Source of the DNA: a virus
Length of the DNA: 22,324 nucleotides
Direction: 5' to 3' (one strand)
IMG/VR virus record: IMGVR_UViG_3300046467_001179
Coordinates: 1 to 22,324 of that record
In this document: positions 6,425 to 22,324 of the stretch, one piece after another
How the letters are laid out: each line of letters starts with the position of its first letter
How positions within the stretch are numbered: the stretch's first letter is position 1
Position numbers and translations under genes: made by a program
Notes under the pieces: generated by a model
Database searches by the model: none
Seen by the model: the letters and a program-made list of their open reading frames with translations, nothing else
What the model was told of the DNA's origin: nothing

Positions 6425-6894
6425 AACTCTTCAAACTCCATAGACACATTATACAACACACCACCAGAAAAATTGCGGCGCATTATCAAAGATTCTTGAT
6501 ACGAATTAACAAAAACATTATATTGTGTATACCCAGTACCATCATTCTTTTTAATATATAAACGTATAGCATTAGTAGAATTAGATAGAGATTTTAAATA
6601 GATCCGCCCTTTACGACCATCAAATGTATCACTTGAATCATCTGGAAGCATCTTCCAGCTCATCGACACCTTTACTTTAGCAAGATTGCGAGGATACCAA
6701 TTGTTTCCCCGACCCCTGGATGTACGAACAGACCTGACGTTTTTTTGCTGCAGTGTTAACGAGGTCTGTCTGCCATGATCAGTTAATGGATCATTATTAA
6801 TCATCATGTACGGCCTATCAGCCCAAGAGCTATAAATAGCTAAACTAGCTGTTCCAGTACCAGTCAGAGCGGCGGATCCAGTCACCGTAGGCAT
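6421..6894 (-). CDS. Distal-tail-like protein, paralogue of its upstream neighbour
   Basis: This 157-aa protein has no catalytic motif. Its last two thirds align with the preceding 166-aa protein: VSMSWKMLPDD...TFDG...IYLKSL here against LSFKYLPSF...TVDG...YMYSLF there, and YQESLIMRRNF...LYNVSMEFEEL against YSEILLRRDEF...YYDVSIELEGL. The position between tape measure and hub, the size and the beta-rich sequence suit a distal tail or tail-tube-like protein. The start overlaps the upstream stop (TAATG) behind a GAGGGG ribosome site, and the stop overlaps the hub start. The N-terminal 50 residues are Thr/Ala/Ser-rich and not shared. Exact role is inferred from context only. Confidence 0.6.
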   Translation of the reverse strand: MPTVTGSAALTGTGTASLAIYSSWADRPYMMINNDPLTDHGRQTSLTLQQKNVRSVRTSRGRGNNWYPRNLAKVKVSMSWKMLPDDSSDTFDGRKGRIYLKSLSNSTNAIRLYIKKNDGTGYTQYNVFVNSYQESLIMRRNFSGGVLYNVSMEFEEL

Positions 6895-7394
6895 TACAGC
6901 CCCTCAAGTTCAATAGATACATCATAATAGTAGCAACGATTAAATTCATCTCGTCGCAACAAGATTTCACTGTAACTCATAATACGAGCTAATGTAGTCT
7001 TATAATCAAAATCAGATTGACTTGCTGTATAATCAGGGAGATACTCTATTAAAACATTTTTATCTAAAGCAAATAGAGAATACATATAATCCCTTGCCTC
7101 ATAGCCATCAACAGTCATGCTAGCAAAACTAGGTAGATATTTAAACGACAAAGAATACTTTTCCGGCACTCCAATACGATACCTTTTACTATTGCCAGAA
7201 GCTAAAGTAACCGTTTTGCCAATAATGTTTGAACCCATCTCAAAAGTTCTATTTTGAGCCGTCAACTCTCTACCATTGATTTTAAAAAAAGATTTTACAA
7301 CCTGCTTAGATCCACCAGCAGCTTTAAACTTGCTATCTATAGCATTAACAGAAGCATTAGCATAAATACTTGAACTTGCCATTAGCACAGCCAT
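6894..7394 (-). CDS. Distal-tail-like protein
   Basis: This 166-aa protein follows the tape measure directly, sharing its stop in a TAATG overlap. A purine-rich GAGGTAGGG acts as ribosome site. ATG at 7394 is favoured; a second ATG four codons in (MASSSIY) is possible. The sequence is beta-rich with a central LSFKYLPSF...TVDG segment and a C-terminal YYYDVSIELEGL, both shared with the next gene. In siphophages this slot usually holds the distal tail protein that joins the tube to the hub, often with a tail-tube-like fold. That assignment is from position and length, not a recognised signature. Confidence 0.6.
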   Translation of the reverse strand: MAVLMASSSIYANASVNAIDSKFKAAGGSKQVVKSFFKINGRELTAQNRTFEMGSNIIGKTVTLASGNSKRYRIGVPEKYSLSFKYLPSFASMTVDGYEARDYMYSLFALDKNVLIEYLPDYTASQSDFDYKTTLARIMSYSEILLRRDEFNRCYYYDVSIELEGL

Positions 7395-10300
7395 TATACC
7401 CTACCTCGCCTGTTATTATCAGCCATAGAACTTATCTTCCTAGATTCGAGACCTCTAGAACGCTCATTCTTGGGAGCAACATTAACGTTGTATTCTCCCA
7501 TCATACCCTCAAACCACTCAGGTTCACCAATGAAGTTCTCAACAAAAATATTAGTACCTGAACCGCCACCACCTTGATAGTTCTTAGTATGATTCATGCC
7601 CTCCAACTTGGACAAGCCAATATTCTGGACAGCCTTGGCGCTCATAACGTATTCACCACCATGAGCCATGACAGGTACCATAGACGACTGGAACCCGCCC
7701 AAATACTTGCCATACTGAGCCTTGACTACACCACCATTATACTTACCAAACATGCCACTAAGACTAGACATCCAGCTAGCATCCCAATAGGCACCACCGA
7801 TTCCAGACGCAGCGGAAGCCACACCACTTCCGAAACTTTTTGCACTATCAATAGGGCTAGATAACCAGCTAGCATCCCAAACAGCACCTGCCGCAGATGC
7901 AGCTGCAGACCCAACATGGCTACCTATATCTCTCCCAACTTCTACAAAGTCCCAATCTCCCGTGTCCGCCCATGGCTTACCGCCAGTAAAACTTCCTATA
8001 TGCTTATTAGTCCAGCCCTCTTCACGATCCCTCTCCGAATCGGTCAAAGCTGTAGATAAATTGACTGTAGGCTTATCAGTCCAACCCCACTCACGATCCT
8101 TCTCCGAATCACTCAAAGATATACCGGGTATGAAACTGCTCGCAGATGGCGTAGCCCAACCAGACCCCTGAAATCCTTGGGCTTGACTAGTCACTCCTAT
8201 ACCAGCACCAGTGTCCAAATTAGTGAAGTCTCTTCTCACTCCTACACCTGCACCTATACCAGCACCAGTGTCCAAATTAGTGAAGTCTCTTCTTCCCTGA
8301 AGGCCGCCTGCACTACTGCCGCCAAACCAACCTCCACCCCCGGCCCCGCCTCGGCTTCCAGGACCCATCCCTAGAGGACTCGGGTCTACACTAGAGACAG
8401 CAGTATTAATCCTATCCACAGAAGCCTCAACACCATCAGCCATAGAGTCCACAGCCTCAATAGCACCATCCTTCAACAACGCCAATTCTGCCACCAAAGG
8501 TAGAATTGTATTAAGAAGCTTCTCCCTGCCGTTTGCCCAAGAAAAAGCGATAATCTCCCAATTGAGATCATCAATCCACGCCTGTTCAACCTCATCAAAC
8601 ATGCGGGTCATCTCACCAGCAGCATCAGCATGGAAGGTTTCAAAAGTCCCTAACCATCCATCCACCTGCCTCTGCACTATAGGACCAACATTAGTTACCT
8701 TCTCATCAATGACACCAGCATCGTCAAACAGTTCCGCAAACTTGCCACGCAACTCGCCATCAACAATTTGAGCAAAGTCTTCAATACTCTTAGCGCTAGC
8801 AGCCTCAGGACCAAAGACACGAGCCATGCCAGTAGTCAGGTACCCATTTACATCATCAACATACTGCTGCCACTCTGCAGCATTCTGAGGTAGACGTTCC
8901 TGAAGATCTGCAAGATGATCGCTAAGAATATCCTTTTCAATTTTCAACAACTCAGCGGCATGCGCTTTAGCTTCCTGAATTTCTTTTATCGCTGCTTTGC
9001 GCTTCAGATCTAACAGATAGTCGGCCCGATTAGTATCAATCTTGCTGACATCCGTCTCTCCCTTAGCAGTAGACATACTAAACTTAACAGCAAGATTACG
9101 AGCATCCTCAATTCTGCCTTCATATATTGCCAAAGCTCTATTGCGAATAAAGTTTTCCTTATCCAAAGACATACGGGCAAGCAATTCTCTACGAGCACTT
9201 TCATACTCAACTGTTTTAGTTAATTCTTTCTCAGCTTTAATCGTATCATTGATAACTGAGATGCGCGTATCATACGCCGCCAGATATACCTTTCCATAAG
9301 CCTCAAATGCTTTCATGGCACTATCAGCTATCTTCTTCATTTCCTTCTGGAACTTGCTCTTAACCTTAGTTACCCACTCTCCCTGAATCTTTCTAAGTTC
9401 CTTCGCTAATGTCTGCGCAGCCTCAGTAGCACCCGCTGCCGCAGCATTCTCATAAACATCTGCCACTTCGTCCTCTGCGTCTTTTGCGCCTTCAATGTGG
9501 GCATCAGTAAGTTGCCCTGCAAAATCAGCACCATCAACAACACCCAGCAGAGCATCCCTAGTGGTTCGCGCCAAATCCCAACCAACAACCGTTGTAAGAG
9601 AGTCCGTAACTGCTTGTAAACCATTATCGAAGCCTTCCGCTATGGCTTCACCTGCCTCTTTTAGCGAATCGCCCTGAATCCAATCATTTACATTCTCTCT
9701 ACCGCTTTGAATAACATCAAACATATCGTCAGCATCTGTTCTCATATCCTTCAACTGATCTTCAATGTTGAAATCGAAATCCCAACCAAGCAATCCACCA
9801 GTCGCCCAATTGAGAGCACCACCAAGATCATTGATGCCGGAAAGCATACCATTAATAACAGGCGTTAACTTATCACCCAACCACAAGAATGCCTTAACAG
9901 TCTCTCTAACAACAAATATAACAACCTCAAGAAGCTTATCAAGGGCACCCATTGCAACTTGCAATACCGGAACAATAACAGTATTGACCACCCAAAAGAA
10001 CGGTGTGGCTAGGAACTGTACAACCTTGATTATGCCTGTAACAATAATCAGAACAGTATCCAACAGATACTCCAAAATCTTAACGATCCAATAAACAACC
10101 TGAATAACGACCTTAGCGATGGCCCGCCAATTGTCAGCCAACCAACTAAGTACAAAACCAATACCCTTAGCAACATAACTAATTACAGTCAATACACCCC
10201 TGATAATTGGTGGAAGAATAGTTAAGAATACCTTTCTGAAAATCCTGGAGAACCACAACGCAACGTTAGCAAGGCCTTGCAGCACACTCGCAACGCCACT

Positions 10301-13300
10301 CATACTGTCCTCTACAGCCTCGCCGCCCTCTTTGGACTTCTTCCCAAAAATGTCCTCAAAAATATCAAAGAAGATTTGTCCGATCTCCTTGAAAACGGCA
10401 ACAATGTTATTCCAAGCCACCTTCAATGTATCAAAAGCACCACCAGCAGCATTTTTAAACTTGCCGAGATTCTGAACAATAAACATGATTGCTGCACCCA
10501 GTATAATCATGATAGCCATAATTCCTGTACTCATCATAGCGATCTTCACAGCCTTCAAAGACGCCTTCCACGCTACCTTAAATACGGTAGCTGACAGAAC
10601 AGCTTGAAGCTTTATCAGCTTGAATGCCCCACCAAAACTCCTTTTAAGGCCACCAGCCATTGTTTTACCAGCTGCCTTCCAACCACCCGTCATGAATCCT
10701 TTAGCCTTTAAAGACTGAGCTTTAACCGCATTCCAAGCCGTATTAAATGGCTTCGTTATACCAGATTTAATGCTAGGTCCAATTTTAGCAAGACTATCGG
10801 TCATCTTTTTAGCGCTAGGACCAGGCATCACTCCTTTTTGAAACTGACCTGCTCCGGGCATGCCTTTGGGAATCCTAGCCTGAACGGGTTTGAAGCCCTT
10901 CATGTACGTAGCTGCCTTGCTGGATTGTGTCTTAAGGCTAGTAGTAGTATTCTTAAACTTCTTTTTAAAGTTGCTTTCCCACCTGTTTACATCATCAGTA
11001 CTATTCTGCCATATATTCTGACGAGCCCTGCGTGAATCCCTCAGTGCCTTTTCTTGAGCCTTATAAGACTTCTTATACTTATCAGTGGCGCCTTTATCTG
11101 GAGCTGGCATCGCAGGGCCATGCATACCATCTCCAAGGCCACCAGAGGCAGTACTGAATCCTCCAGCAGCACCGGCACTTGCATCACTCAAAACATTAGC
11201 GCTTATTTTCTGCATTTCGCCCATGCCGGAATTCATTATGCTTTGATCGGCTCTAATAGATTTAAAAGTATCTAAAATGCCTTTACCTGCATTTTTGACC
11301 TTGCCACCAACAGCAACCCAGCCAGTACCAAACCTTCTAAGAACCGGCATGCTATCACCAGCCATAGCTTTAGAAAGCATCAAGCTTCTAGTCAAATCCT
11401 TCATTCTAGGCAATACGCCAGCCGCCACCCTACCTATACTGCTAATCGCAACAGATGACTGACCAAAAATAAACGCCACAGGACCAAGAGCGGCAGCAAG
11501 CAAACCAACTACAAGAATAACCTGCTTGACAACAGGACTCATATTTTGCATAGCCTGAATCCATTCCCTGATCTTAGGAATAATACCTCTAATGGTATCA
11601 AAGAACTCTGTACCAATATCCAAGAGAAGGTCTCTAATATCGTTACGAACAAGCTGCATCATCATCGCAGGCCCGCCCATCACAGCATCGAACTCTTGGG
11701 TGAACTGTTTACCGGCACTAGAAGCACCCATGAAGTCAATCACCATAGCTTTCATCGGAGGGCTCAAATCTTCCAGAGACCTATTCAAAGCCATAGAACG
11801 CTGTTGTGCATCTAAGAATGTAAGTTGCGTATCCTCACCAGCTATTTTTACATTATGAATATCAAGCAAGAACTTCTCTATTGAATCTTCAGTATCAAAA
11901 GCATTCTTAAACTGCTCTCTTAATGCTTTATCATCAACCGCATTCGACATGGCATTTGCAATATCACCCTGTCCTATGTTTCTAAATATTTGGCCAACAT
12001 CCTTAACATTATCCGCAAAAGACCCCAAAGCCAAAGTCGTAGCATAAATACGTGAAGCCTGACGCTTTCCAACCATCTCACCCAGATAGACCAGAGCCTG
12101 CTCATCAGAAGCCTCTTTGGAAATCAGTGCCATATTCTCAGACATTTTGAAAAGCATCATATTGCCAATACCGAGATCCTTATGGAACCCAGAACCAAGC
12201 TCATTACTCAACTGAGCTGACAACTCAACGACCTTAGACGTTGGATTAACCATCCTCTGCAAAGCAAACTTCAAAGCGTGAGCAGACTCAGTAGCATTCA
12301 AACCAGACTGCCGCATACCACCAATAACACCAGACAAGAATACAAGATCAATACCAGCAGCCTTAGCAGCCGGCGACACCTGAGGGAACGCTTCAGCCAA
12401 ATCCTTCAAGGACAAAGCAGTCATGTTCTCAACAAGGTTGAACTTAGCAAGCATACCGCGAACAACATCAATCTTAGGTACAAGCTCCGTTATCGCCTCA
12501 CCAAATTCATCAACTTCACCTGTTGCTTTATGAGTATCACCAATAACACCAGCAAGGTTGGCAACAAAATCACGCCCAACCTGAGCAGACACCTGACCAA
12601 CATGCTCCAACTTGAGCGTTAGTTCTGCATACATAGAAGCCGTATGTGCTAGATCGTCACCACCACCAAGCATCTTCTTGCCCATCTGAGCAAAATCAGA
12701 TGTCAACGCAGCAACTATACTCCTAGAAACACCCAACTGAGTAGAGAGAGCATGCATCCTTGTACGAAGCCTCTCTTCAGCATCACCTGTTAAACCCAGA
12801 ATCTTCTTAGTTCTAACAAACTGCTTCTCAAAAGCCTCAAACGCCTGCGTAGCCGAACGCAACATAATACCAAGAGGCGCCGTGATACCGACAATCATCT
12901 GACGACCAACCCACTGAAGGTCCTTAGACTTCTTCAACATCAAGTTAGTGACATTTCTTAAATCAGTGCCCAACTTCCGCAACGGAAGACCAGACATTTG
13001 CTTGCGTGCTATAACTATTTGTTTTGAATAAGTACGCCAAGCAGCGCTACCAAGTGTTGTTTCTTTTCTGGCTGCTTTAAGATTGCCAACCTGACTTCTA
13101 ATTTCATTCCTGAAGACCTTGTTATTTCTAACAAGCATCTTCATAGTTGTGGCTTGCCCGAAGAAGATCTTCTGAAGATCCTTAGCCGTTCCCTCCAGTT
13201 TGGGGAAGGCGTTAGCCAACTGCATAGAAGCATCTTTAACTTCTATAGTGTTTGCTTTGAGCTTGAGTACAGACGAACGAAGCTGGCCCAGCTCGTTTAA

Positions 13301-13348
13301 GCCGCCAACTTTAACCCTAAACTCTAAGTTCGTCTCACCTGAAGCCAT
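7394..13348 (-). CDS. Tail tape measure protein
   Basis: At 1984 aa this is the longest gene and has the classic tape-measure layout. The N-terminus (NLEFRVKVGGLNELGQL) and a helical region lead into a TP901-type core at about residues 130-420 (ITAPLGIMLRSATQAFEAFE, DLAEAFPQVSPAAKAAGID). Hydrophobic, probably membrane-active segments lie at about 603-630 (ILVVGLLAAALGPVAFIFG), 939-963 (IMIILGAAIMFIV) and 1033-1156. A charged coiled coil covers about 1326-1490. The C-terminus carries Gly-rich repeats and the common tape-measure motif MVPVMAHGGEYVMSAKAVQN near 1890-1912. It sits directly after the tail chaperones, starting at ATG 13348 behind AGGTGTG. At the usual 0.15 nm per residue it predicts a tail near 300 nm, unusually long. 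No separate lytic domain was recognised. Confidence 0.95.
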   Translation of the reverse strand: MASGETNLEFRVKVGGLNELGQLRSSVLKLKANTIEVKDASMQLANAFPKLEGTAKDLQKIFFGQATTMKMLVRNNKVFRNEIRSQVGNLKAARKETTLGSAAWRTYSKQIVIARKQMSGLPLRKLGTDLRNVTNLMLKKSKDLQWVGRQMIVGITAPLGIMLRSATQAFEAFEKQFVRTKKILGLTGDAEERLRTRMHALSTQLGVSRSIVAALTSDFAQMGKKMLGGGDDLAHTASMYAELTLKLEHVGQVSAQVGRDFVANLAGVIGDTHKATGEVDEFGEAITELVPKIDVVRGMLAKFNLVENMTALSLKDLAEAFPQVSPAAKAAGIDLVFLSGVIGGMRQSGLNATESAHALKFALQRMVNPTSKVVELSAQLSNELGSGFHKDLGIGNMMLFKMSENMALISKEASDEQALVYLGEMVGKRQASRIYATTLALGSFADNVKDVGQIFRNIGQGDIANAMSNAVDDKALREQFKNAFDTEDSIEKFLLDIHNVKIAGEDTQLTFLDAQQRSMALNRSLEDLSPPMKAMVIDFMGASSAGKQFTQEFDAVMGGPAMMMQLVRNDIRDLLLDIGTEFFDTIRGIIPKIREWIQAMQNMSPVVKQVILVVGLLAAALGPVAFIFGQSSVAISSIGRVAAGVLPRMKDLTRSLMLSKAMAGDSMPVLRRFGTGWVAVGGKVKNAGKGILDTFKSIRADQSIMNSGMGEMQKISANVLSDASAGAAGGFSTASGGLGDGMHGPAMPAPDKGATDKYKKSYKAQEKALRDSRRARQNIWQNSTDDVNRWESNFKKKFKNTTTSLKTQSSKAATYMKGFKPVQARIPKGMPGAGQFQKGVMPGPSAKKMTDSLAKIGPSIKSGITKPFNTAWNAVKAQSLKAKGFMTGGWKAAGKTMAGGLKRSFGGAFKLIKLQAVLSATVFKVAWKASLKAVKIAMMSTGIMAIMIILGAAIMFIVQNLGKFKNAAGGAFDTLKVAWNNIVAVFKEIGQIFFDIFEDIFGKKSKEGGEAVEDSMSGVASVLQGLANVALWFSRIFRKVFLTILPPIIRGVLTVISYVAKGIGFVLSWLADNWRAIAKVVIQVVYWIVKILEYLLDTVLIIVTGIIKVVQFLATPFFWVVNTVIVPVLQVAMGALDKLLEVVIFVVRETVKAFLWLGDKLTPVINGMLSGINDLGGALNWATGGLLGWDFDFNIEDQLKDMRTDADDMFDVIQSGRENVNDWIQGDSLKEAGEAIAEGFDNGLQAVTDSLTTVVGWDLARTTRDALLGVVDGADFAGQLTDAHIEGAKDAEDEVADVYENAAAAGATEAAQTLAKELRKIQGEWVTKVKSKFQKEMKKIADSAMKAFEAYGKVYLAAYDTRISVINDTIKAEKELTKTVEYESARRELLARMSLDKENFIRNRALAIYEGRIEDARNLAVKFSMSTAKGETDVSKIDTNRADYLLDLKRKAAIKEIQEAKAHAAELLKIEKDILSDHLADLQERLPQNAAEWQQYVDDVNGYLTTGMARVFGPEAASAKSIEDFAQIVDGELRGKFAELFDDAGVIDEKVTNVGPIVQRQVDGWLGTFETFHADAAGEMTRMFDEVEQAWIDDLNWEIIAFSWANGREKLLNTILPLVAELALLKDGAIEAVDSMADGVEASVDRINTAVSSVDPSPLGMGPGSRGGAGGGGWFGGSSAGGLQGRRDFTNLDTGAGIGAGVGVRRDFTNLDTGAGIGVTSQAQGFQGSGWATPSASSFIPGISLSDSEKDREWGWTDKPTVNLSTALTDSERDREEGWTNKHIGSFTGGKPWADTGDWDFVEVGRDIGSHVGSAAASAAGAVWDASWLSSPIDSAKSFGSGVASAASGIGGAYWDASWMSSLSGMFGKYNGGVVKAQYGKYLGGFQSSMVPVMAHGGEYVMSAKAVQNIGLSKLEGMNHTKNYQGGGGSGTNIFVENFIGEPEWFEGMMGEYNVNVAPKNERSRGLESRKISSMADNNRRGRV
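8196..8293 (-). repeat. 41-bp perfect direct repeat (57-bp period) in the tape measure gene
   Basis: The plus-strand segment beginning CCTATACCAGCACCAGTG occurs at 8196-8236 and again at 8253-8293, identical over 41 bases. The 57-base spacing keeps frame (19 codons) and duplicates the peptide RRDFTNLDTGAGIG. Just downstream (about 7990-8130) an imperfect repeat encodes SDSEKDREWGWTDKP and TDSERDREEGWTNKH. This linker region seems prone to slippage or duplication. Confidence 0.9.
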
Positions 13349-13365
13349 ACATCACACCTAGTATA

Positions 13366-13734
13366 TTATCCCACATCAACGCTTTCATAACCAAGCCCGA
13401 TGGGTAAATGTGTGATAGTAAATTCGCTGTCCAAATCTAAGTCAGCAGAAGAACCTGAGCCTCCTCCCAGATCCTCAAGATCTGTCATAGAGTCGTACTC
13501 GCCTAGCCCCTCTCCTGTAACTACCCTAGCCAACAAATCATAATCATTATGTCGTCTGAACCTTGACATATCAACGATATGTATAAGTTCAGGCAATGAT
13601 AATTCAAGCTCTATGTCTAATATGCTTTTCCAAGCCCCAACGGAGACAAATGCCTCCAAAACGAGATGATGGAGAGGGAAGTCGCTCCAACCTGCTTGTT
13701 GCGAAGCGACTTCACCTCCCCCTCCATCTATCCG
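13366..13734 (-). CDS. Tail assembly chaperone frameshift extension (gpT-like part of a gpG-T fusion)
   Basis: This frame has no good start: no ATG near its 5' end, and the first plausible initiator is a TTG at 13659 without clear ribosome site. It continues without a stop from the end of the upstream chaperone gene, one frame back. Re-reading base 13734 gives RIDGGGGEVASQQAGWSDFP and then HHLVLEAFVSVGAWKSIL, continuing to the TAA at 13366. The full fusion would be 227 aa (105 + 122). The GW..DFPLHHL-type motif right after the junction resembles the start of other frameshifted chaperone extensions. The acidic, Ser/Gly-rich tail (GGGSGSSADLDLDSEF) is not recognised. Lambda gpGT recruits tail tube subunits to the tape measure; the same job is inferred here. 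Confidence 0.85.
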   Translation of the reverse strand, partial: RIDGGGGEVASQQAGWSDFPLHHLVLEAFVSVGAWKSILDIELELSLPELIHIVDMSRFRRHNDYDLLARVVTGEGLGEYDSMTDLEDLGGGSGSSADLDLDSEFTITHLPIGLGYESVDVG

Positions 13735-13740
13735 TTTGGG
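13668..13740 (-). promoter_or_regulatory. Programmed -1 ribosomal frameshift site: slippery heptamer plus stem-loop
   Basis: On the minus strand 13740-13734 reads C CCA AAC in the phase of the upstream gene, a canonical X XXY YYZ slippery heptamer. The zero-frame stop TAG follows one codon later (13730-13728). Five bases past the heptamer an inverted repeat begins: 13728-13722 pairs with 13674-13668 (7 bp, GATGGAG/CTCCATC) and 13713-13705 pairs with 13686-13678 (9 bp, GAAGTCGCT/AGCGACTTC). The internal loop is asymmetric and the apical loop is 18 nt. Both pairings were checked base by base. The spacing and stem strength suit a frameshift-stimulating hairpin. Confidence 0.88.
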
Positions 13741-14048
13741 TCTTCTGCAACCTCATTGCCCATACTGGCAGCCATTAAGGCACCAAAGCACTTGAGGTCT
13801 AAAGCATCTTCGAGAGCATCTTCATCATTAGCTAAATCAGGATCAACCTTCTGCAGAGCGATTGCGGCTGCAGATACCATATTATCAATATCTGCATCAG
13901 AAAGGCCCGCTTCACTATCGACATTTAACTTATCCGCAATTTTCATAAAACTACGGAGCTGCCTGATAGTGAGCGGGAATACCTTCCTGTTCACACCGTC
14001 TGCAAAAGCAATATCCTGACCTTCTCGTAGGTCTTTATTTACAGCCAT
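13728..14048 (-). CDS. Tail assembly chaperone, short form (gpG-like)
   Basis: This 106-aa, mainly helical, acidic protein lies between the major tail protein and the tape measure, the standard slot for the lambda gpG-type chaperone. It has no catalytic motif; it begins MAVNKDLREGQDIAFADG and ends EVAEDPNG. Most ribosomes should stop at 13728, giving the short form, while a minority slip one codon earlier into the extension frame. It starts at ATG 14048 behind AAAGGTG. It has its own promoter candidate, the only sizeable gap in the tail cluster being just upstream. The role is inferred from position, size and the frameshift arrangement. Confidence 0.85.
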   Translation of the reverse strand: MAVNKDLREGQDIAFADGVNRKVFPLTIRQLRSFMKIADKLNVDSEAGLSDADIDNMVSAAAIALQKVDPDLANDEDALEDALDLKCFGALMAASMGNEVAEDPNG

Positions 14049-14072
14049 TTAATTTTCACACCTTTCATTAAG

Positions 14073-14093
14073 TGGTAGATGATCATTCTACCA
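14073..14093. repeat. 7-bp inverted repeat over a -10 element, possible operator
   Basis: TGGTAGA (14073-14079) and TCTACCA (14087-14093) are perfect inverted copies separated by 7 bases that include the self-complementary TGATCA. The repeat covers the -10 hexamer and the expected start of the neighbouring promoter. A regulator could bind here, or it may form a hairpin at the transcript's 5' end. No regulator gene is in the window. Confidence 0.5.
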
Positions 14094-14113
14094 TATTTTT
14101 ATAACCAGATCAA
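14085..14113 (-). promoter_or_regulatory. Promoter candidate for the tail chaperone / tape measure block
   Basis: Minus strand: -35 TTGATC (14113-14108), a 17-base spacer, and -10 TAGAAT (14090-14085) preceded by the extended TGG. Transcription would start near 14078, giving a leader of about 30 bases that contains the chaperone ribosome site. It lies in the 78-bp gap after the major tail protein. Sigma-70-like, judged by eye. Confidence 0.6.
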
Positions 14114-14126
14114 GCATTACCCCGAG

Positions 14127-14726
14127 TTACGAGAGAGTTACTTGATCTTGAATCTTACCATACTCGTAACCGACATCAGCAGCGTTGGGCAGAATCCTGA
14201 ACTCAACAGGGAACGCCACAGCTTCTGACCGCTTCATCGAATGCGAACTTGCCGAATACGATACAGCGCGCTTGGTCTGAAATGTACGAGTCTTGGTTGC
14301 AGCAGCAGTCGTTCCCGGCGCATTGCCGATAACCTGCACAACCTTCTCATACGGATATACGTTTTCAATACCAAACTTGAATGTCTGCGATGCCGAAGCA
14401 CCAGAAAGCGTATCCAAATCAGTCACGATGTCTGCAGTTGCTGAATCAGACGCAGCCACGGTAGAATTGTAGTTCCATGCGTGGGCAAGATTAACCAAGG
14501 TCGCCTCAGCGAAAGTTGTCTTCATCATCACTTTCACACGGGACTGAATAACCTTTGCAGCATCACCAAACTGATCGACTTCAATGTCAACCATGTCAGG
14601 CTCCCAAGACAGCTCAACGCCATCAATAGTAGCACCAACGTCTGGACAAGCTGAAAAGGCAGTGCCTGCTTCTCCAACTGCTACGGTTGCTTCACCAACT
14701 ACAATATTTGCAGTAGTAATTGCCAT
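14127..14726 (-). CDS. Major tail protein (tail tube subunit)
   Basis: This 199-aa, beta-rich, Ala/Thr-rich protein opens MAITTANIVVGEATVAVGEA, a style common in siphophage tube proteins. Its middle (VELSWEPDMVDIEVDQFGD) resembles the conserved tube segment that describes the contact with neighbouring subunits. It sits after the connector genes and before the tail chaperones, the expected place. It has the best ribosome site in the window, AGGAGG at 14740-14735, eight bases before the ATG, as expected for a structural protein made in many copies. No Ig-like extra domain is seen at the C-terminus. The tube role is inferred from length, composition and gene order. Confidence 0.85.
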   Translation of the reverse strand: MAITTANIVVGEATVAVGEAGTAFSACPDVGATIDGVELSWEPDMVDIEVDQFGDAAKVIQSRVKVMMKTTFAEATLVNLAHAWNYNSTVAASDSATADIVTDLDTLSGASASQTFKFGIENVYPYEKVVQVIGNAPGTTAAATKTRTFQTKRAVSYSASSHSMKRSEAVAFPVEFRILPNAADVGYEYGKIQDQVTLS

Positions 14727-14741
14727 TATGTTTTCCTCCTA

Positions 14742-14942
14742 TTATTCTAGAGTAAACAAACATTTACCACGTTTGTCTCTCCATCTTGATATTTTTATTG
14801 CGTGCTCTAAAGGCACTTCATCTTTGCGGCTTCCCACTCCCCTAGAGTTCTGCCACTCAAATTCATGAGTGGATCCCCCTACGCGAGCAACAAAACCTGA
14901 TGTCTTTCCCACATACGTAATAGAAGTATATCTTACTTTCAT
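14742..14942 (-). CDS. Small conserved-looking phage protein of unknown function
   Basis: The product is 66 aa, basic and beta-rich, starting MKVRYTSITYVGKTSGF and ending RWRDKRGKCLFTLE. Small proteins of this style (beta strands, a polar middle, then a short helix ending in a strand) are frequent among actinophage head and tail genes, but I cannot name a family. It lies 12 bases after the tail terminator and 15 bases before the major tail protein, so it is co-transcribed with tail genes. There is no strong ribosome site before ATG 14942. A structural or assembly accessory is plausible. YVGK alone is not enough to call a GIY-YIG nuclease. Confidence 0.6.
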   Translation of the reverse strand: MKVRYTSITYVGKTSGFVARVGGSTHEFEWQNSRGVGSRKDEVPLEHAIKISRWRDKRGKCLFTLE

Positions 14943-14954
14943 TATTATTGCGAA

Positions 14955-15413
14955 TCAATCTGTCACGTACATGACTGAAAAGTCTAGTTGGATTGCGTAC
15001 CAACCCTCCTTTTCAAGAGGTTCAGTAGTTCTAGATCTCAACAATCTTGAACTCAATACTCGATTTTTAACACTATTTGTATTAGTAGTGGACGTTACAG
15101 TAGCATCTGTACCCGGTCCCCTTGGACCCCCACCAACATCAAACATACTAATAATCTTATTAGTAATCCTAAAACAGCGATCTGCCTCCGAATCATAAAT
15201 ATGATAACGGAGAGTATCTTCTCGTATCATATAAGAACTACTCTCAATATGACCCGGTATCCAATAATAAATTATAAACGGCGGAGTTTGACTACTGGGG
15301 GCAACCATAGGAAAGATATCCATCGTTGTTCCAGCCACAGTTGCCAACTCCGAATTGGTTTTCAATGCAGTATTAAAGTCGTATGCGATAATCTGATCAC
15401 CAAATACCGGCAT
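14955..15413 (-). CDS. Tail terminator / tail completion protein
   Basis: This 152-aa protein occupies the fourth connector position, just before the tail tube gene. Its make-up fits tail terminators of the gp17/gpU type. An N-terminal helix (YDFNTALKTNSELATVAG) is followed by PPFIIYYWIPG, a strand region (SSYMIREDTLRYHIYDS), a helix that would face the ring centre (RCFRITNKIISMF), and a final strand pair ending AIQLDFSVMYVTD. Its start overlaps the previous stop (TAATG), with only a weak ribosome site, suggesting translational coupling. The family is inferred from order and secondary structure pattern. Confidence 0.7.
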   Translation of the reverse strand: MPVFGDQIIAYDFNTALKTNSELATVAGTTMDIFPMVAPSSQTPPFIIYYWIPGHIESSSYMIREDTLRYHIYDSEADRCFRITNKIISMFDVGGGPRGPGTDATVTSTTNTNSVKNRVLSSRLLRSRTTEPLEKEGWYAIQLDFSVMYVTD

Positions 15414-15760
15414 TATCTCGTAATCCTTCCGCTAAAATCTCTCTGCACATTGACAGACATGTCTTTCATTTCATCATTTATAATCTCCACAACTTGATCT
15501 CGTATGGAATCTAATAGACCTTCACTTGAAGATGTCAATGTAATACCCAGACCATCCATGTCTACCTTCCAGTCAAGCTCAAGAGCTTTTTCTCGTCCCG
15601 GGAACGCATCTCTAATGCGACTTTCAATCTGACCAACGGACTGAGAACCATTCGCTGCTAATGATGTGTAGAGTTCAGTTTCAGCAGATTGCAGTTTGCT
15701 TGACATCTGCTTAACTTCGCCATCTTTCACCTTTAAAGAATACCATCCAGGCTTTGCCAT
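15413..15760 (-). CDS. Neck / tail component, HK97 gp10-like
   Basis: The 115-aa protein is helical at the start (VKQMSSKLQSAETELYTSLA), followed by IRDAFPGREKALELDWKVDM and a C-terminal helix ending SVNVQRDFSGRITR. Proteins of this size between the head-closure and tail-terminator genes are usually gp10-like neck components; a long N-terminal helix plus a helix before the last strand is typical. GGAGGCG precedes the ATG, and the start overlaps the previous stop by one base. No enzyme motif is present. The function is assigned from position. Confidence 0.6.
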   Translation of the reverse strand: MAKPGWYSLKVKDGEVKQMSSKLQSAETELYTSLAANGSQSVGQIESRIRDAFPGREKALELDWKVDMDGLGITLTSSSEGLLDSIRDQVVEIINDEMKDMSVNVQRDFSGRITR

Positions 15761-16134
15761 TACTGCGCCTCCGATACAACTCTAGCAGTAATATGTAAAT
15801 GGTGTATGCCACCCGACAGGCCAGTATACTTCATAATAGAAACGATCTCTAATGGACCTGCTTCAATAATATTACCCTTATTATCACGAATATTAAACAA
15901 TCTAGATTTATATGTCACAACACCATTAAAGTGTTTTGGAATATTAATATGATACTGATCAATATCTTTAACATATGGACTCACATCACGTTCATGGCTG
16001 CCCGGTGTCATAAAACCATTAATAGTCTCTGAATAGAAGTAGCTTTTAACTACCTGACCGGCAGAAGAAGTGTTAGAGCTGAGTTGATGAACGTCGATCC
16101 TCTGCGGGAACTTCATATACGTCTGAAAAGCCAT
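15760..16134 (-). CDS. Head closure / head-tail stopper protein
   Basis: The 124-aa product is almost all beta: an opening FPQRIDVHQLS, a middle INGFMTPGSH...VSPYVKDIDQYHINIPKHF, and a C-terminal LEIVSIMKYTGLSGGIHHLHI ending in ITARVV. A small barrel with the final pattern (G-hHhxIxaRxV) is common in stopper proteins of the SPP1 gp16 type, which plug the portal after packaging. It starts two bases after the adaptor stop. The call rests on gene order and fold pattern. Confidence 0.65.
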   Translation of the reverse strand: MAFQTYMKFPQRIDVHQLSSNTSSAGQVVKSYFYSETINGFMTPGSHERDVSPYVKDIDQYHINIPKHFNGVVTYKSRLFNIRDNKGNIIEAGPLEIVSIMKYTGLSGGIHHLHITARVVSEAQ

Positions 16135-16136
16135 GA

Positions 16137-17084
16137 CTATCCCACGTAATCCATTACATAGTGTGTATAGTCCATCAATAGCACATCGGCATCAGTATTG
16201 CCAGTAGATCCATAAAAATCTTGGTCAAACCGATACCGGGTAGTATCCATATCAACAGAATGAATACGATGCCTGCGATACTCGCTGTCATCATTCATTA
16301 AATCTAAAACTAATAATTCAGCAGCATCTCGAACATTATTAGGAACATATCTCCATCCAAAATTACCAGTCACCTTATAATCAGATTTACTATTAAACTT
16401 ATTATGATAAGTTCTAGCAATATAACTTTTTCTAGTATCTGAAACTTTATTTTTAAATCGAACAACATATGAAGAACCGAAGTTCCCCATCGTATTATAC
16501 TTCTCAAGATTGTTCAAGGTAGTATCGCTAGCATCATGAATAGTTTCAGCATCGCTGTCTCCAAAGTCGGCAACTACAGTAGTTAAAGTATCTATGGGAT
16601 ACGGTAAACGCAAAAAACGATTATCGTAGCCATCTATTATAAAACTCTTAGATCCGTAATTATCAAAATCCTGTCCACAATACGTATTGATAATCCTACG
16701 AGCTTTTCTCTCATAGTCTTCAAATTTAGCTCCAAATGTAGCCTGCAAATCTGAGTGATTCGTAAAAAACGTCACCGGCGTAATATAAGGCGTATAAACA
16801 TTAAAATAAGATTCACTCGTATAAGCCGTCGAGCTTATATCGTAAGCAAAGACAACTTTGTGTGCTCCACCCTGTGCCAGTACGAAATTATTAGAATTAG
16901 CAGTAGTTTCTCCAAATACAATTGAATACTCGCCAGCAGCAGTTCTCGTACACGCCGTAGAGGTTTGCACTACACTACTGTCAGCAAACTCATGTGATAA
17001 CGTTGCATTCACCACACTGCTATCAGGATCTGCTCCTAAAGCTAATAAAACTGTTTTACTAGTATTTATCTTTACATCGTCCAT
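16137..17084 (-). CDS. Head-tail adaptor with an extra N-terminal beta domain
   Basis: Residues from about 105 on resemble HK97 gp6-like adaptors: a helix with YERKARRIINTYCGQDF followed by beta strands (FLRLPYPIDTLTTVVADFGD), WRYVPNNVRDAAELLVLDL and an Arg-rich, Asp-rich end. Usual adaptors are near 100-200 aa; this one is 315 aa because about 100 residues of beta-rich sequence (VNATLSHEFADSSVV, GAHKVVFAYDISS) precede it. That part looks like an Ig- or BppU-type domain. It starts at ATG 17084 behind GAGGA. A promoter sits just upstream, so this gene opens the connector-tail unit. Adaptor role is likely; the N-terminal domain's role is unknown. Confidence 0.7.
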   Translation of the reverse strand: MDDVKINTSKTVLLALGADPDSSVVNATLSHEFADSSVVQTSTACTRTAAGEYSIVFGETTANSNNFVLAQGGAHKVVFAYDISSTAYTSESYFNVYTPYITPVTFFTNHSDLQATFGAKFEDYERKARRIINTYCGQDFDNYGSKSFIIDGYDNRFLRLPYPIDTLTTVVADFGDSDAETIHDASDTTLNNLEKYNTMGNFGSSYVVRFKNKVSDTRKSYIARTYHNKFNSKSDYKVTGNFGWRYVPNNVRDAAELLVLDLMNDDSEYRRHRIHSVDMDTTRYRFDQDFYGSTGNTDADVLLMDYTHYVMDYVG

Positions 17085-17101
17085 GGTGTTCCTCTATAGA
17101 A

Positions 17102-17110
17102 ATTATACCA
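17102..17110 (-). promoter_or_regulatory. Extended -10 promoter for the connector and tail genes
   Basis: TGGTATAAT on the minus strand is a perfect -10 hexamer with the extended TGn motif, in the 35-bp gap after dpdA-like. The expected start is near 17095, giving a leader of roughly 10-12 bases with GAGGA just before the ATG. No convincing -35 was found, as is usual for extended -10 promoters. The ten bases ATGGTATAAT differ at one position from the site before the tail chaperone. Confidence 0.6.
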
Positions 17111-17119
17111 TTATCAGCA

Positions 17120-17836
17120 TTATGAAACTAACATTTTCTCTCGCCATCGCAATGCATAACGACGACAATTCGCACATGATCGATGAGTACACTCATCTAA
17201 TGGAGGTTCATACCTAGCCCAAAAGGACCAAGCCATTGAATCTGCGCTGGTCAGGAGATGTTTATTGCTCTTATAAGCAGCACCCTTAATACCAAATCCA
17301 TGCAAATTTAGTGGTTGCAATGATTCAATAATTTCAGATATTTCCATATCAGCATGTCTTCGACAGACAGAACCCAAACCAATAACAGCCTCTTCACCGA
17401 GATCCACGCCTTCTCTCTCGTACATGTCAACACATTCTAAATAGCTGTCTTTGCTCCATCCCTGAAGGACTGGAACAAGAATGGGGCCAAGGATTTCTCG
17501 TAGTTCAAGAAAGTTCCTTACTGTTTTTACCTGATGTTCTTTAACAGATAGACCAGTAGCTTTAAGAGCAGAAGCTTCACACATCCAATCTTGCGGCGCC
17601 GCCCAATCCAACATACCTATTTCGTCAATATACCTATTCACTATCTCAGCATATGATGCAACCGACATCTGCCATCCTCCATTTTTATGCAACTCAGTGA
17701 AGCCCCCCGAATCTAAAACCCAACGATGAGACGCCACGGGCAGGACTACACGACGCTCCAACCTACGCCGTGAAACAAATAACGGAACATTAATATCCTT
17801 CAACCAAGAAGGCTCATGTGTCCCTAAGTAAAACAA
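17120..17836 (-). CDS. dpdA: DpdA-family DNA transglycosylase (7-deazaguanine insertion)
   Basis: This protein belongs to the TGT-like DpdA family of phages. Enzymes of this family swap guanine in DNA for a 7-deazaguanine base, protecting phage DNA from restriction. From MFYLGTHEP: LDSGGF (Asp42), AAPQDWMCE (Asp83), VPVLQGW (about 121-127), GLGSVCRR (153-160), HGFGIK and LTSADSMAWS (Asp199) are characteristic, followed by a zinc-type CTHRSCANC (Cys216, Cys221, Cys224, with His218). The frame can be opened at TTG 17851, but TTG 17836 gives the family-like beginning MFYLGTH and 238 aa; no ATG is available. It overlaps the PP-loop gene by 13 nt, so the two are probably translated together. No deazaguanine-synthesis gene (FolE, QueD, QueE, QueC) is in the window. 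Which base is inserted is unknown. Confidence 0.9.
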   Translation of the reverse strand: MFYLGTHEPSWLKDINVPLFVSRRRLERRVVLPVASHRWVLDSGGFTELHKNGGWQMSVASYAEIVNRYIDEIGMLDWAAPQDWMCEASALKATGLSVKEHQVKTVRNFLELREILGPILVPVLQGWSKDSYLECVDMYEREGVDLGEEAVIGLGSVCRRHADMEISEIIESLQPLNLHGFGIKGAAYKSNKHLLTSADSMAWSFWARYEPPLDECTHRSCANCRRYALRWREKMLVS

Positions 17837-18621
17837 TATCCAGAATCGCAATCTTCAGGACCATCAAGATCGAAAGATAACTGATCCTCAACTACCGTAT
17901 CTAAAGGCTTTGCATATCGTGTCAACCATACGTGATCTTTACCTACAGCATCTCGCTTTTTATTTATCTCCTGCTCAAGATATACAGACTTGTCAAACAA
18001 GTCAGGCCTTTCAATCTTCAAGCGTCTCCAAGCTTCCTTATTATGAAAAGGACAAAAAAAACATGCCGATTTAGGAGGAGCAGGTAAACCAACCTCTTTT
18101 ATAACATCATAACAAGCCTTACGATTCATCTGCAATTGCAATAATGGATACTCTAATATCTGATCATCAAACCCAGAATTATCCCTAGCACGTTCAATCT
18201 CATCTACAGAAATACCCAATCCTGTTATCGCCGGGTCTTCTCTGCACGAACCATTTGCACGCTGCCATCTACGTATAACTCTTATCTTAAAATCGGAAGT
18301 GCATCCCCGAGTACCCGGTGCTCCGTTGCTCATCCTAATCGGAATAGGTATTTGTGCGCTATTCTCAGCCAATAATCTATTCCATATAGTTTCCACAGAA
18401 CCATTCTTTAAAACGCGATGCAGTTCAATTAGCTCAATACCATGCTTTTTCGCAAACGGTATATGATGTTCACGATAATAATCTAAAGATCGAGGATCTT
18501 CACTATCATCACCAACATTGGCAAATAGAAATACATCATACGGTTCAGGCAATTTACCTAGAGCTTGTAATACCAATACCGCTGTAGACTGAACACCTGC
18601 ACCAAATGAGAATGTCCTCAT
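17824..18621 (-). CDS. PAPS-reductase-like PP-loop ATPase family protein
   Basis: The 265-aa protein starts with a PP-loop, FSFGAGVQSTA, that binds ATP in ATP-pyrophosphatase enzymes, followed by FANVGDD. Cysteines follow a recurring pattern: RGCTSDFKIR (Cys107), RKACYD (Cys170), SACFFCPFHNKEAW (Cys187, Cys190), and a terminal CDSGYCFT (Cys258, Cys263). Cys107, 170, 187 and 190 could hold an iron-sulfur cluster. This is not a classical sulfate-assimilation enzyme; phage members are annotated as phosphoadenosine phosphosulfate reductase family. It starts at ATG 18621, six bases after the endolysin stop, and overlaps dpdA. The pairing suggests a step in DNA base modification. An anti-defence or sulfur role cannot be excluded. 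Confidence 0.8.
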   Translation of the reverse strand: MRTFSFGAGVQSTAVLVLQALGKLPEPYDVFLFANVGDDSEDPRSLDYYREHHIPFAKKHGIELIELHRVLKNGSVETIWNRLLAENSAQIPIPIRMSNGAPGTRGCTSDFKIRVIRRWQRANGSCREDPAITGLGISVDEIERARDNSGFDDQILEYPLLQLQMNRKACYDVIKEVGLPAPPKSACFFCPFHNKEAWRRLKIERPDLFDKSVYLEQEINKKRDAVGKDHVWLTRYAKPLDTVVEDQLSFDLDGPEDCDSGYCFT

Positions 18622-18627
18622 GCGATC

Positions 18628-19338
18628 CTACTCCCAGAGAGCTGTCCAAGTTTTTGGGCCAACAACCCCATCTGGCTTAAGCCTAGCGCACTTTTGAAAT
18701 TGCTTAACCGCCCTTAACGTTCCACGACCAAAGATGCCATCTGCAATGCCGACATCTACACCGATTGCTCCAAGACGTCTTTGCATCGTCTTTACACGAT
18801 CAGATCGTTCCTTGTAACGTATCGGCTTGAGTTGAATACTCTTTCTGATATCATTCAATAATCTAACTATACCCAGCCAGTCTATCTTAGGGGTTTCTTT
18901 TTCAGCTGCCGTTTCAATTACTCCACTTTCAATTTGAAACCAGCCATCCCCATCTCGAGGCTGATGATGCCACCATTCACTAGAAACGGTGGGATATAGG
19001 CCATAATGTTTAGCGATATTATTAACTTCCCACGTTTTAATACCTTTACCTACCAGACCAAAGTCAACAGCATAACAATAACCATCCGGCTGCTCCATAT
19101 GGAAAGATCCCTTAAAGAACCCATCAGGACGTTGCCAATCAGGATTAGCGGCTAAGTTGCCGCGACCTTTCTTATACCTATCATGCAACCACTTCTGCTG
19201 TGCATACGTTCTGCAACCAGATGTCACAATTACACGACCCTTAATTCTAGGATCTTGAAAGAACTTATCTAACCTAGCTTTAAATCTAGGATGCAATAAG
19301 CTAAGATCTACCCTTGAGTTACTTACTGGTATTGTCAA
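18628..19338 (-). CDS. Endolysin: M15-type peptidase plus peptidoglycan-binding domain
   Basis: This 236-aa enzyme should cut peptide cross-links of the host wall at lysis. Residues 38-120 carry VTSGCRTYAQQ, the zinc motif GSFHMEQPDGYCYAVDFG (His80, Asp92), then SSEWWHHQ (Glu121, His124), the M15 (VanY / D-Ala-D-Ala carboxypeptidase) pattern. Residues about 178-235 form a PG_binding_1 domain (VKTMQRRLGAIG, DGIFGRGTLRAVKQFQ, GVVGPKTWTALW). The frame has a TGA just upstream, leaving TTG at 19338 as the start; GAGGA lies about ten bases before it, inside the preceding gene. It overlaps that gene by 20 bases. No holin or signal peptide was seen. Bond specificity cannot be read from the sequence. 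Confidence 0.9.
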   Translation of the reverse strand: MTIPVSNSRVDLSLLHPRFKARLDKFFQDPRIKGRVIVTSGCRTYAQQKWLHDRYKKGRGNLAANPDWQRPDGFFKGSFHMEQPDGYCYAVDFGLVGKGIKTWEVNNIAKHYGLYPTVSSEWWHHQPRDGDGWFQIESGVIETAAEKETPKIDWLGIVRLLNDIRKSIQLKPIRYKERSDRVKTMQRRLGAIGVDVGIADGIFGRGTLRAVKQFQKCARLKPDGVVGPKTWTALWE

Positions 19339-20401: not shown

Positions 20402-20677
20402 TCAACCGTCCGCTATCTCTATGTAAATACATTCGCCGGGACATTCATCTGCCGACTCTATGACATCCTCTAAAAGCCCCTCAGGGACATCGGCCAGACC
20501 CTTAGCCATCTTGTAAACCGGTTCGCCCTTAGCCGATCCGTCAGGTCCGTACATAGTAGGCCATCCAACTTCCTTCACATAGGCCAATCCGTCATCGTGC
20601 ATCTCGAAGATATCAGGGCAGATCTCAGCACACAGCCCATCTCCCGTGCATAGATCTTGATCAATCCATACTTTCAT
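20402..20677 (-). CDS. Small ferredoxin of the actinobacterial P450-ferredoxin type
   Basis: The 91-aa protein begins MKVWIDQDLCTGDGLCAEIC and ends ECPGECIYIEIADG. Cluster ligands expected are Cys10, Cys16 and Cys79 (the Cys of CP); position 13 in C-x2-D-x2-C is Asp, as in Pyrococcus furiosus ferredoxin, where Asp replaces a Cys. Two extra cysteines, Cys20 and Cys83, could form a disulfide. A central insertion (GWPTMYGPDGSAKGEPVYK) makes it slightly long for the type. It would carry one [3Fe-4S] or [4Fe-4S] cluster and pass electrons to an oxidase or reductase; no partner enzyme is obvious here, although the PP-loop protein 1.8 kb downstream may be one. The ATG overlaps the upstream stop (TAATG) behind GAGGAGG. 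Confidence 0.92.
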   Translation of the reverse strand: MKVWIDQDLCTGDGLCAEICPDIFEMHDDGLAYVKEVGWPTMYGPDGSAKGEPVYKMAKGLADVPEGLLEDVIESADECPGECIYIEIADG

Positions 20678-22324
20678 TATTCATCCTCCTCGATAGTTAG
20701 TCGGTACCAACCGCCGTTCGCTGTGTTGTAAACCGAAGCCTGCACCACATAGTTACCCACAGCCATGTCCGTGCGGACAATGCGGCTGTCCCACTGATCG
20801 CTCACGTTGTCGATCACTGGGACACCATTGGAGCAAGCCCCTCCGGTGTTGCAGTAGGTAATAGTGGGTGTCTCATCCACATCCACCGCACTGCTAGGCG
20901 GGTTGGTGCAAGTGCTTCCACAGTCGCTCCCACCGTCATCGTCCGTTTCAATCGTGCCGCCGGGTGCGATGCTGTCCGTATCCCCTGAGTGGTCCCCCTG
21001 ATCAGAGTCCGTATCTTCTCTGAGGTAGAGATACGGGTCGGCAGCCTCGTTACTTGTATTGAACTGGGCGCGAGTCAGATTTGTTTCAGCGTCGATACGG
21101 ACACTGGTTACCTCAGTCAAAGAAAACTGGATATGGTCGCGGTCTTGGCGGCTAGAGGATTGCACGATGCACCAGTCCCCCATGCCTCTCCAACCACCCT
21201 CAGCACAGCCTTCCTCAGTGGCCACCGTTGCAGTTGTCGTAGAAGCTGACGTATAAGCATCGCCAGCAGTGGCGGTAGTTGTCTGAGGACTCCAGCCGCG
21301 CACAGTGCTGCAAGACTGCTGAACGCCATCTGAGAGTGTGCATGAGGTCATATCTGATCCGGCGCGAGCCACCACGGTCGTCGTGTCTACATGAGTCGTC
21401 GTAACTGTTGTAGCCGTCGTGGTGTCAAGATGCCAGTGACCATCGTTGCTGTTATGGGTCAAGATTCCGCTCTCAGCGGTTGTGGTGGCGGTCCCCGTCT
21501 GAGCAGTAGTAGTGCTCGTAGAGATCGTCTCGGACAAGGCAGTGTTCGTGTTCGTGTAGGTAATGGTCGGGTAGTAGACCGCTATTGGGACCACCACCGG
21601 GATGTACGCCTCTTGGACTTCTTCGGGAAGGTATTCTTCTGCGACATCTATTGAGACGATCCCTGCTTCAACCTCAACAGTGAAGTCAACCCATGTGGTG
21701 TACCCACCCGGTGGAGTACCCCAGTCATCGTAGTAGGCAGGGTTATTGGCTGCATCGTAATCCTCCCAGTCATCATAACCTCCGGGTGCATCGTCACATG
21801 CTGAAGTGCCCCGACAGTCGCTATAGGGATCCCATGATTCTTCCGGCTCCGGCTCCGGCTCAGGCTCCGGTTCTTCCCATTCTTCTTCATCTACTTCAAC
21901 GTGAATGTCTTCTTCGAGTTCTTCTTCAATTTCTTCAAGTATCTCTGCGCTTTCCTCTTCCCATTCTTCTTCTTCCCATTCTTCTTCATCTACCTCTTCG
22001 TCCCATTCTTCTTCCCATTCTTCGTCTTCTTCTGCAGCAGGCATATCCGTTTCGTCCACTTGCTCTTCATCCATTTCCTCTTGTTCAAATGGAGCGCTGT
22101 CGGATTCAAACTCGTCATCATCGAGCCATTCGTCTTCCCATTCCTCTTCTAATTCCTCTTCAACTTCTTCTTCAACTTCTTCTACTTCTTCTTCGGGTCC
22201 TTCCAGCCACTCGTCTTCTTCTTCCCCTTCTGGTTCATCATTCCCCCACCCAGTTTCGTTCCCATCTTCGTCGGATTCTTCATCGCTTTCTTCATACTCT
22301 TCATCATACCATTCTTCTTCCTCT
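20677..22324 (-). CDS. Highly acidic Glu/Trp-repeat protein with PPC-like C-terminal domain, 5' end beyond the window
   Basis: The frame is open from the stop at 20677 to the right edge, so ATG 22074 is internal; 548 residues are visible. The first 160 or so are almost pure Glu/Asp with Trp every few residues (WEEEWDEEVDEEEWEEEEWE, then EPEPEPEPEE). A Tyr/Asp/Gly-rich linker (DDWEDYDAANNPAYYDDWG) follows, then a long Thr/Ser stretch (TTTATTVTTTHVDTTTVV) with scattered cysteines. The last 190 residues look like a PPC (pre-peptidase C-terminal) beta domain: HIQFSLTEVTSVRI, DPYLYLRED, then SRIVRTDMAVGNYVVQASVY and GWYRLTIEE, with Asp/Cys-rich insertions. Such domains are usually extracellular and glycan- or protein-binding. 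A virion surface or host-adhesion role is plausible; I do not recognise the whole protein. Confidence 0.75.
   Translation of the reverse strand, partial: EEEEWYDEEYEESDEESDEDGNETGWGNDEPEGEEEDEWLEGPEEEVEEVEEEVEEELEEEWEDEWLDDDEFESDSAPFEQEEMDEEQVDETDMPAAEEDEEWEEEWDEEVDEEEWEEEEWEEESAEILEEIEEELEEDIHVEVDEEEWEEPEPEPEPEPEESWDPYSDCRGTSACDDAPGGYDDWEDYDAANNPAYYDDWGTPPGGYTTWVDFTVEVEAGIVSIDVAEEYLPEEVQEAYIPVVVPIAVYYPTITYTNTNTALSETISTSTTTAQTGTATTTAESGILTHNSNDGHWHLDTTTATTVTTTHVDTTTVVARAGSDMTSCTLSDGVQQSCSTVRGWSPQTTTATAGDAYTSASTTTATVATEEGCAEGGWRGMGDWCIVQSSSRQDRDHIQFSLTEVTSVRIDAETNLTRAQFNTSNEAADPYLYLREDTDSDQGDHSGDTDSIAPGGTIETDDDGGSDCGSTCTNPPSSAVDVDETPTITYCNTGGACSNGVPVIDNVSDQWDSRIVRTDMAVGNYVVQASVYNTANGGWYRLTIEEDE

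Follow-up and report, generated by a model that had tools for sequence, protein, structure and literature searches.

In a viral DNA record of 22,324 bases (IMG/VR IMGVR_UViG_3300046467_001179; G000), a gene for a DpdA-type guanine transglycosylase overlaps a gene for a PP-loop/PAPS-reductase-like protein. Each of the two genes is of a known type and is usually found without the other, and their pairing recurs independently. We tentatively favor the reading that the pair consists of two separately acquired DNA-protection genes stacked side by side, in which DpdA would use a base from outside the phage and the PP-loop protein would introduce a sulfur-type modification of its own. The whole record, which is a fragment and possibly incomplete, was analyzed and is called the window below.

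Results

The gene pair and its coordinates

The late region of the window (43.6% G+C) is encoded on the minus strand, and dpdA is the downstream and the PP-loop gene the upstream member of the pair (Table 1). Both genes are real and lie where the sequence-only reading had placed them, as shown by the match of DpdA to PF23859 and of the PP-loop protein to phrog_424 and the PADLOC SspD profile. The flanking genes, an endolysin-like gene upstream and a head-tail adaptor-like gene downstream, were also described correctly. The dpdA frame encodes 243 residues from its first TTG (17851) and overlaps the gene for the 265-residue PP-loop protein by 28 nt from that start, or by 13 nt from the second TTG (17836, MFYLGTHEPSWL). 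The DpdA homologs begin at FYLGTH, corresponding to the second TTG (e.g., MTFYLGTHEPHWL in L002), and the PF23859 match on the longer protein begins at residue 7. These results indicate that the second TTG is the likelier start and that 13 nt, the overlap originally claimed, is the better figure.

Table 1. Features of the window (positions in the 22,324-base record).
Feature	Position	Strand	Remarks
Tape measure protein	7394–13348	-	Late region
Tail/Ig-domain protein	14127–14726	-	Late region
Head-tail adaptor-like protein	16137–17084	-	Downstream border of the slot
Variable slot, endolysin to head-tail adaptor	17085–18627		Contents differ among relatives
dpdA, guanine transglycosylase (DpdA, PF23859)	17120–17836	-	Likely start TTG 17836, alternative TTG 17851
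PP-loop/PAPS-reductase-like protein	17824–18621	-	phrog_424, SspD-like; C107, C170, C187, C190, and C258/C263 conserved
Endolysin-like protein with PG_binding_1	18628–19338	-	Upstream border of the slot
4Fe-4S ferredoxin (Fer4_15)	20402–20677	-	Lineage-wide, with or without the pair

In addition, a long open frame at 20677–22323 of the window encodes a repetitive segment that is extremely rich in E, D, and W and, after it, T-rich segments; no family match was found for this frame in Pfam or PHROGs.

The pair occupies an accessory slot

Positions 3–17084 of the window are colinear with positions 13198–29642 of an 85-kb relative (G048), at roughly 34–82% protein identity. In this relative, the slot between the endolysin and the head-tail adaptor holds a methyltransferase and a Mom-family protein (PF25680; locus L257 9730–10787, equal to G048 29730–30787), which have a DNA-protection role by family. 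Mom carries out an acyl-type modification of adenine, a chemistry unrelated to that of DpdA or the PP-loop protein. G048 also has DpdA, a 100-residue open reading frame, and a PP-loop gene, located 30 kb away on the opposite strand and in the reversed order. In other relatives, the slot contains a methyltransferase alone, a ferredoxin alone, or a ferredoxin with a ClpP-like open reading frame. The dpdA gene of mycobacteriophage Pops (Pegunavirus, cluster B1-type) also adjoins a head-to-tail adaptor, and thus the position is not unusual for the DpdA family. The place that had been called odd for DNA modification is an accessory slot, which carries putative modification genes in several relatives.

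The ferredoxin gene is kept across the lineage (also in L342–L346, L263, and L264), and it had no match in the isolated-phage collection. It was considered as a dedicated electron donor and rejected as evidence specific to the pair, since it also occurs in or close to the slot in relatives that have neither the PP-loop gene nor DpdA there.

The DpdA protein has a predicted TGT-type fold

The window DpdA matched PF23859 with 288.5 bits (cut-off 27; E = 6e-86) and phrog_1279 with E = 1.7e-87. Its AlphaFold model (pLDDT 95) has the TIM-barrel fold of the TGT type, and four of the five best Foldseek matches were to TGT, with E values between 1.8e-5 and 3e-4; one of these structures is the preQ1 complex 3bld. 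Because hhalign against E. coli Tgt aligned only the DSGGF stretch and was not significant overall, we relied on the fold match for the kinship to TGT. Across 61 aligned relatives, which share 45–68% identity with the window DpdA, the motifs DSGGF (D47), APQDWM (D88), CRR (C163), HGFG.K (H184), and SADSMAW (D204), as well as C226/C229, were invariant or nearly so. These include the catalytic aspartates and zinc cysteines of TGT, the nucleophile being mapped by motif rather than by superposition, and their conservation indicates that the family is under selection.

The isolates nearest by DpdA are mycobacteriophages (about 51–53% identity), and phage annotations name the PF23859 family queuine tRNA-ribosyltransferase. 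The singleton DpdA of mycobacteriophages Pops and Bella96, the "third group" of Hutinet et al. (2019; PMC6884629), belongs to the same family over almost its full length, and precursor genes are nearby neither there nor in the window. In contrast, the window dpdA overlaps a PP-loop gene, whereas none is annotated beside dpdA in Bella96 or Pops. Judged from the predicted model and the conserved residues, the window DpdA is probably a guanine transglycosylase that would insert a 7-deazaguanine into DNA.

The base would come from outside the phage

No precursor genes (FolE, QueC, and QueD) were seen in the window, a 22-kb and possibly incomplete fragment, and family searches of G048 found neither QueC, PTPS, and FolE nor the VUT transporter. 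Among 50 contigs with a related DpdA, QueC was present in 5, PTPS/QueD in 3, FolE in 1, and VUT in 10. A dpdA gene without queC, queD, or folE is the usual state of this DpdA branch. The pathways of phages 9g, CAjan, and Rosebush (Gat-QueC/QueC/QueD/QueE/FolE; PMC6884629) share DpdA as the inserting enzyme with the window; however, those phages encode precursor genes, whereas QueC, PTPS, and FolE are not visible in the window or G048.

A survey of phage 7-deazaguanine genes from 2019 counted 76 phages with DpdA only, more than in any other group (PMC6884629). In that survey, the DNA of mycobacteriophage Orion, which has a singleton DpdA, contained no 7-deazaguanine, and traces of dADG were present in the DNA of the dpdA-only phage 7-11. 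Phage MED16 has only dpdA and yet contains dADG in its DNA (PMC8306585), and another report describes six new B1 phages, each with DpdA and without the other preQ0 genes (PMC9584339). In view of these publications, reliance of a phage dpdA on a precursor made elsewhere is an established kind of situation and is not new. The rarity of queC, queD, and folE in the related contigs, G048 included, and the modified DNA of 7-11 and MED16 support the earlier proposal that the precursor is supplied from outside the phage.

The VUT family (PF02592), of which one member matches TIGR00697, "queuosine precursor transporter," below the cut-off, was found in 19 loci, and in all 19 its partner is either a PF23859 DpdA or phrog_15826. 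The direct adjacency of VUT and DpdA in a subset of loci argues for salvage. The phrog_15826 family is annotated elsewhere as a DpdA-like tRNA-guanine transglycosylase, and its profile link to PF23859 was not significant. It is putatively a second DpdA-like family, a label that is based on its annotators and on the constant VUT neighbor. VUT lies directly beside phrog_15826 in L117 (12178–13339), L104 (6506–8816), L106 (6688–8816), L204 (1–2858), and L245 (2679–5627), often with a PAPS-reductase-like PP-loop gene alongside.

The PP-loop protein resembles SspD/DndC distantly

The PP-loop protein matched phrog_424, named PAPS reductase, with E = 5.7e-30 and had no Pfam match of its own. Its match to the PADLOC SspD profile is distant (2.2e-13; 5e-18 for L169 and 2e-20 for L065). 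PF01507 did not match it and matched 6 of 76 relatives weakly, hhalign of the family against E. coli CysH gave nothing significant, and the protein does not qualify as a CysH member. It was also rejected as a QueC substitute, since PF06508 did not match and the hhalign alignment with E. coli QueC was confined to the N-terminal region that surrounds the loop. Among the 76 relatives, C107, C187, and C190 are present in all, C258 in 75, and C170 and C263 in 74 each. The PP-loop motif is S-[YF]-G-[GA]-G-V-Q-S, in which Q stands in place of the D of ATP-using superfamily members.

The AlphaFold model (pLDDT 90) has a low-confidence C-terminal tail that contains CDSGYCFT. Its best fold matches were weak (TM about 0.4–0.46) and comprised LarE with a [4Fe-4S] cluster, NcsA, TtuA, and, lower down, PAPS reductase. 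The only solved sequence found by the family profile is "PptA" (PDB 21fy, chain C; E = 2.8e-7 over profile positions 118–233), which shares the CxxC and a DEIxRA-like stretch with the family. No literature on the function of PptA or on phage phosphorothioation was found among the papers examined; the function of PptA could decide the chemistry of the PP-loop protein.

The SspD/DndC subunit of phosphorothioation systems is like the window protein in its PP-loop fold, its conserved cysteines, and the PADLOC match, and chromosomal relatives of the window protein adjoin an SspA-like cysteine desulfurase, as in those systems. In contrast, the match is distant and the window protein ends in a different tail, CDSGxCFT. 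Neither SspA/B/C nor DndA/D/E partners nor a cysteine desulfurase was recognized in the 22-kb fragment.

PP-loop genes of this family mostly occur without DpdA

Searches with the PP-loop family yielded 217 hits in bacterial (actinobacterial) genomes, of which the best 80 were kept, and 208 in viral contigs. Among 50 viral contigs with a PP-loop gene, 5 carry a PF23859 DpdA and 2 the second DpdA-like family, so that 7 have either and 86% neither. Conversely, among 47 contigs picked by DpdA, this PP-loop family is represented strongly in 3 and by a more distant relative in 2. Of 162 loci, 5 have a PF23859 DpdA within 1.2 kb of the PP-loop gene, 3 have phrog_15826, 12 have a C5-methylase, and 8 have a DNA methylase of another kind at that distance; DNA methylases are thus commoner neighbors of these genes than DpdA is. 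Even PP-loop proteins closely related to the paired ones occur without DpdA. These results do not agree with the earlier proposal that the PP-loop protein is a dedicated partner of DpdA; wide occurrence of the gene without dpdA had been named in advance as the observation that would speak against it, and this is what was found.

In about 17 Streptomyces-type loci, the PP-loop gene belongs to an island that also encodes an SspA/DndA-like cysteine desulfurase (SspA match, 4e-130), a PbeA-like helicase, an MzaB-like HATPase, PLD, and HTH proteins. An SspA-like desulfurase is near 24 chromosomal PP-loop relatives, and dnd_rel_methyl (TIGR04096, 6e-156) is within 1.2 kb of the PP-loop gene in 14 loci. 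Mainly from this Streptomyces company, the PP-loop protein is read as a sulfur-type DNA-modification enzyme.

The recurring island, seen for example in L102 (945–8798), L129 (1057–11277), L112, L115, and L141, where the desulfurase is divergent from the PbeA-like helicase, the MzaB-like HATPase, PLD, HTH, and the SspD-like PP-loop gene, itself looks like a phosphorothioation-type defense system, possibly an undescribed one.

Pairing with DpdA recurs

A PF23859 DpdA lies within 1.2 kb of a PP-loop gene in the window, L053, L065, L169, and L185, and phrog_15826 does so in L104, L106, and L204 (at 3.6 kb in L117). The paired genes are always on the same strand and occur in both orders. In L053, L104/L106, L117, and L204, the PP-loop gene joins a group of VUT and DpdA genes, and in two cases it overlaps the DpdA-like frame. 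A 3-kb stretch of the isolated Arthrobacter phage Aoka contains gp36 (PAPS-reductase-like, distant), gp38 (VUT), and gp40 (DpdA-like), and neither QueC nor PTPS was found in the complete genome of this phage. Descriptions of such recurrent PP-loop/DpdA/VUT neighborhoods were not found in the literature examined.

On a tree of 148 PP-loop proteins, adjacency to DpdA needs at least 8 changes, indicating that the pairing arose or was lost repeatedly. Under a null model of uniform placement, the finding of 4 of 7 contigs with the two genes within 1.2 kb has p of about 0.001. This value overstates the case, because further neighbors in these compact regions lie within 1.2 kb at similar rates (RuvC-like, 6/8; TerL, 7/9; primase, 14/23; C5-methylase, 12/28), and this control weakened a strong claim from adjacency. 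The association is suggestive and falls short of proof.

The nearest relatives of the window DpdA (L002 and L003, 68% identity) are on contigs of 31 and 81 kb without the PP-loop gene, and no DpdA was found on the contigs of the nearest relatives of the window PP-loop protein (L082, L166, and L167, 61% identity). The pair in the window thus looks assembled from separate sources.

Discussion

On the reading that we tentatively favor, the variable slot of this tailed phage would have received the pair as an accessory insert for DNA protection. DpdA would exchange guanine in DNA for a 7-deazaguanine base that the phage does not make and that the host queuosine pathway or salvage would provide. 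The PP-loop protein, of the SspD/DndC/PAPS-reductase kind, would most probably add its own sulfur-type DNA modification, with nucleotide chemistry at the PP-loop, a putative Fe-S site formed from C107/C170/C187/C190, and a C-terminal CDSGxCFT tail that may carry sulfur. Both proteins would act in parallel against restriction, and not as one pathway. Against two merely stacked genes, the constant company of VUT and a DpdA type (19/19), the joining of several such loci by the PP-loop gene, and the two overlaps suggest a relation more intimate than unrelated genes need. Against the sulfur-type role count the desulfurase, SspB/SspC, and DndD/DndE, which are unseen in the window fragment, the distance of the SspD match, the weak fold matches (TM about 0.43), the null comparison with CysH, and the Q in place of D in the PP-loop motif.

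The sequence-only reading had instead proposed a role for the PP-loop enzyme in tailoring the 7-deazaguanine, either ahead of its insertion by DpdA or afterward, to give a base outside the known set. The adjacency in five PF23859 and three phrog_15826 loci, on one strand and in both orders, the at least 8 changes on the tree, the co-occurrence with VUT (L053, L104, L106, and L204), the gene set of Aoka, in which the PAPS-reductase-like gene is more distant, and the uniform-position null are all consistent with tailoring. However, most viral contigs with the PP-loop gene lack both DpdA families, the PP-loop proteins of L182 and L195, at a path of 0.1 from that of L053, are on contigs of 58 and 71 kb without DpdA, other neighboring genes are adjacent at similar rates, and the PP-loop protein is not a QueC. 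We consider tailoring a serious rival, and a separate sulfur-type modification stacked beside DpdA the likelier explanation. One form of tailoring, in which the PP-loop protein would convert an imported or host 7-deazaguanine into a sulfur-bearing base (e.g., a thioamide at C7) that DpdA then places in DNA, is improbable; if true, such a hypermodified guanine would link deazaguanine with phosphorothioate chemistry, and a few mobile genes (PP-loop, DpdA, and often VUT) would make it.

The remaining explanations each concern one of the two proteins. DpdA could be idle in a host without usable 7-deazaguanine, or could modify host tRNA, so that the guanine of the virion would be unmodified. This agrees with the DNA of Orion (PMC6884629), whose host makes no preQ0, and with the tRNA-ribosyltransferase annotation of the family, whereas the active-site and zinc-site residues kept across the 61 sequences and, by analogy, the modified DNA of the dpdA-only phages 7-11 (PMC6884629) and MED16 (PMC8306585) argue against it; we regard it as having a low probability. 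A metabolic role of the PP-loop protein, as a PAPS/APS reductase that aids host sulfur assimilation during infection and has nothing to do with DNA, is very unlikely. The name of phrog_424, the weak PF01507 matches of a few members, and a Cys-bearing C-terminal tail with Fe-S-like cysteines that resemble the PAPS reductase fold class would fit such a role, but a profile match to CysH is absent, and the neighbors are DNA methylases, DpdA, replication genes, and SspA-type islands rather than genes of sulfate assimilation.

On the DNA modification status of DpdA-only phages, which number 76 in the 2019 survey (PMC6884629), the present results give three handles: a VUT gene beside DpdA in a subset, a pairing with the PP-loop gene that is repeated yet optional, and, in this phage lineage, a slot in which other members have Mom or a methyltransferase. 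Since the isolate Aoka carries a comparable PAPS-reductase-like, VUT, and DpdA-like set without QueC or PTPS, this status can be tested in the laboratory.
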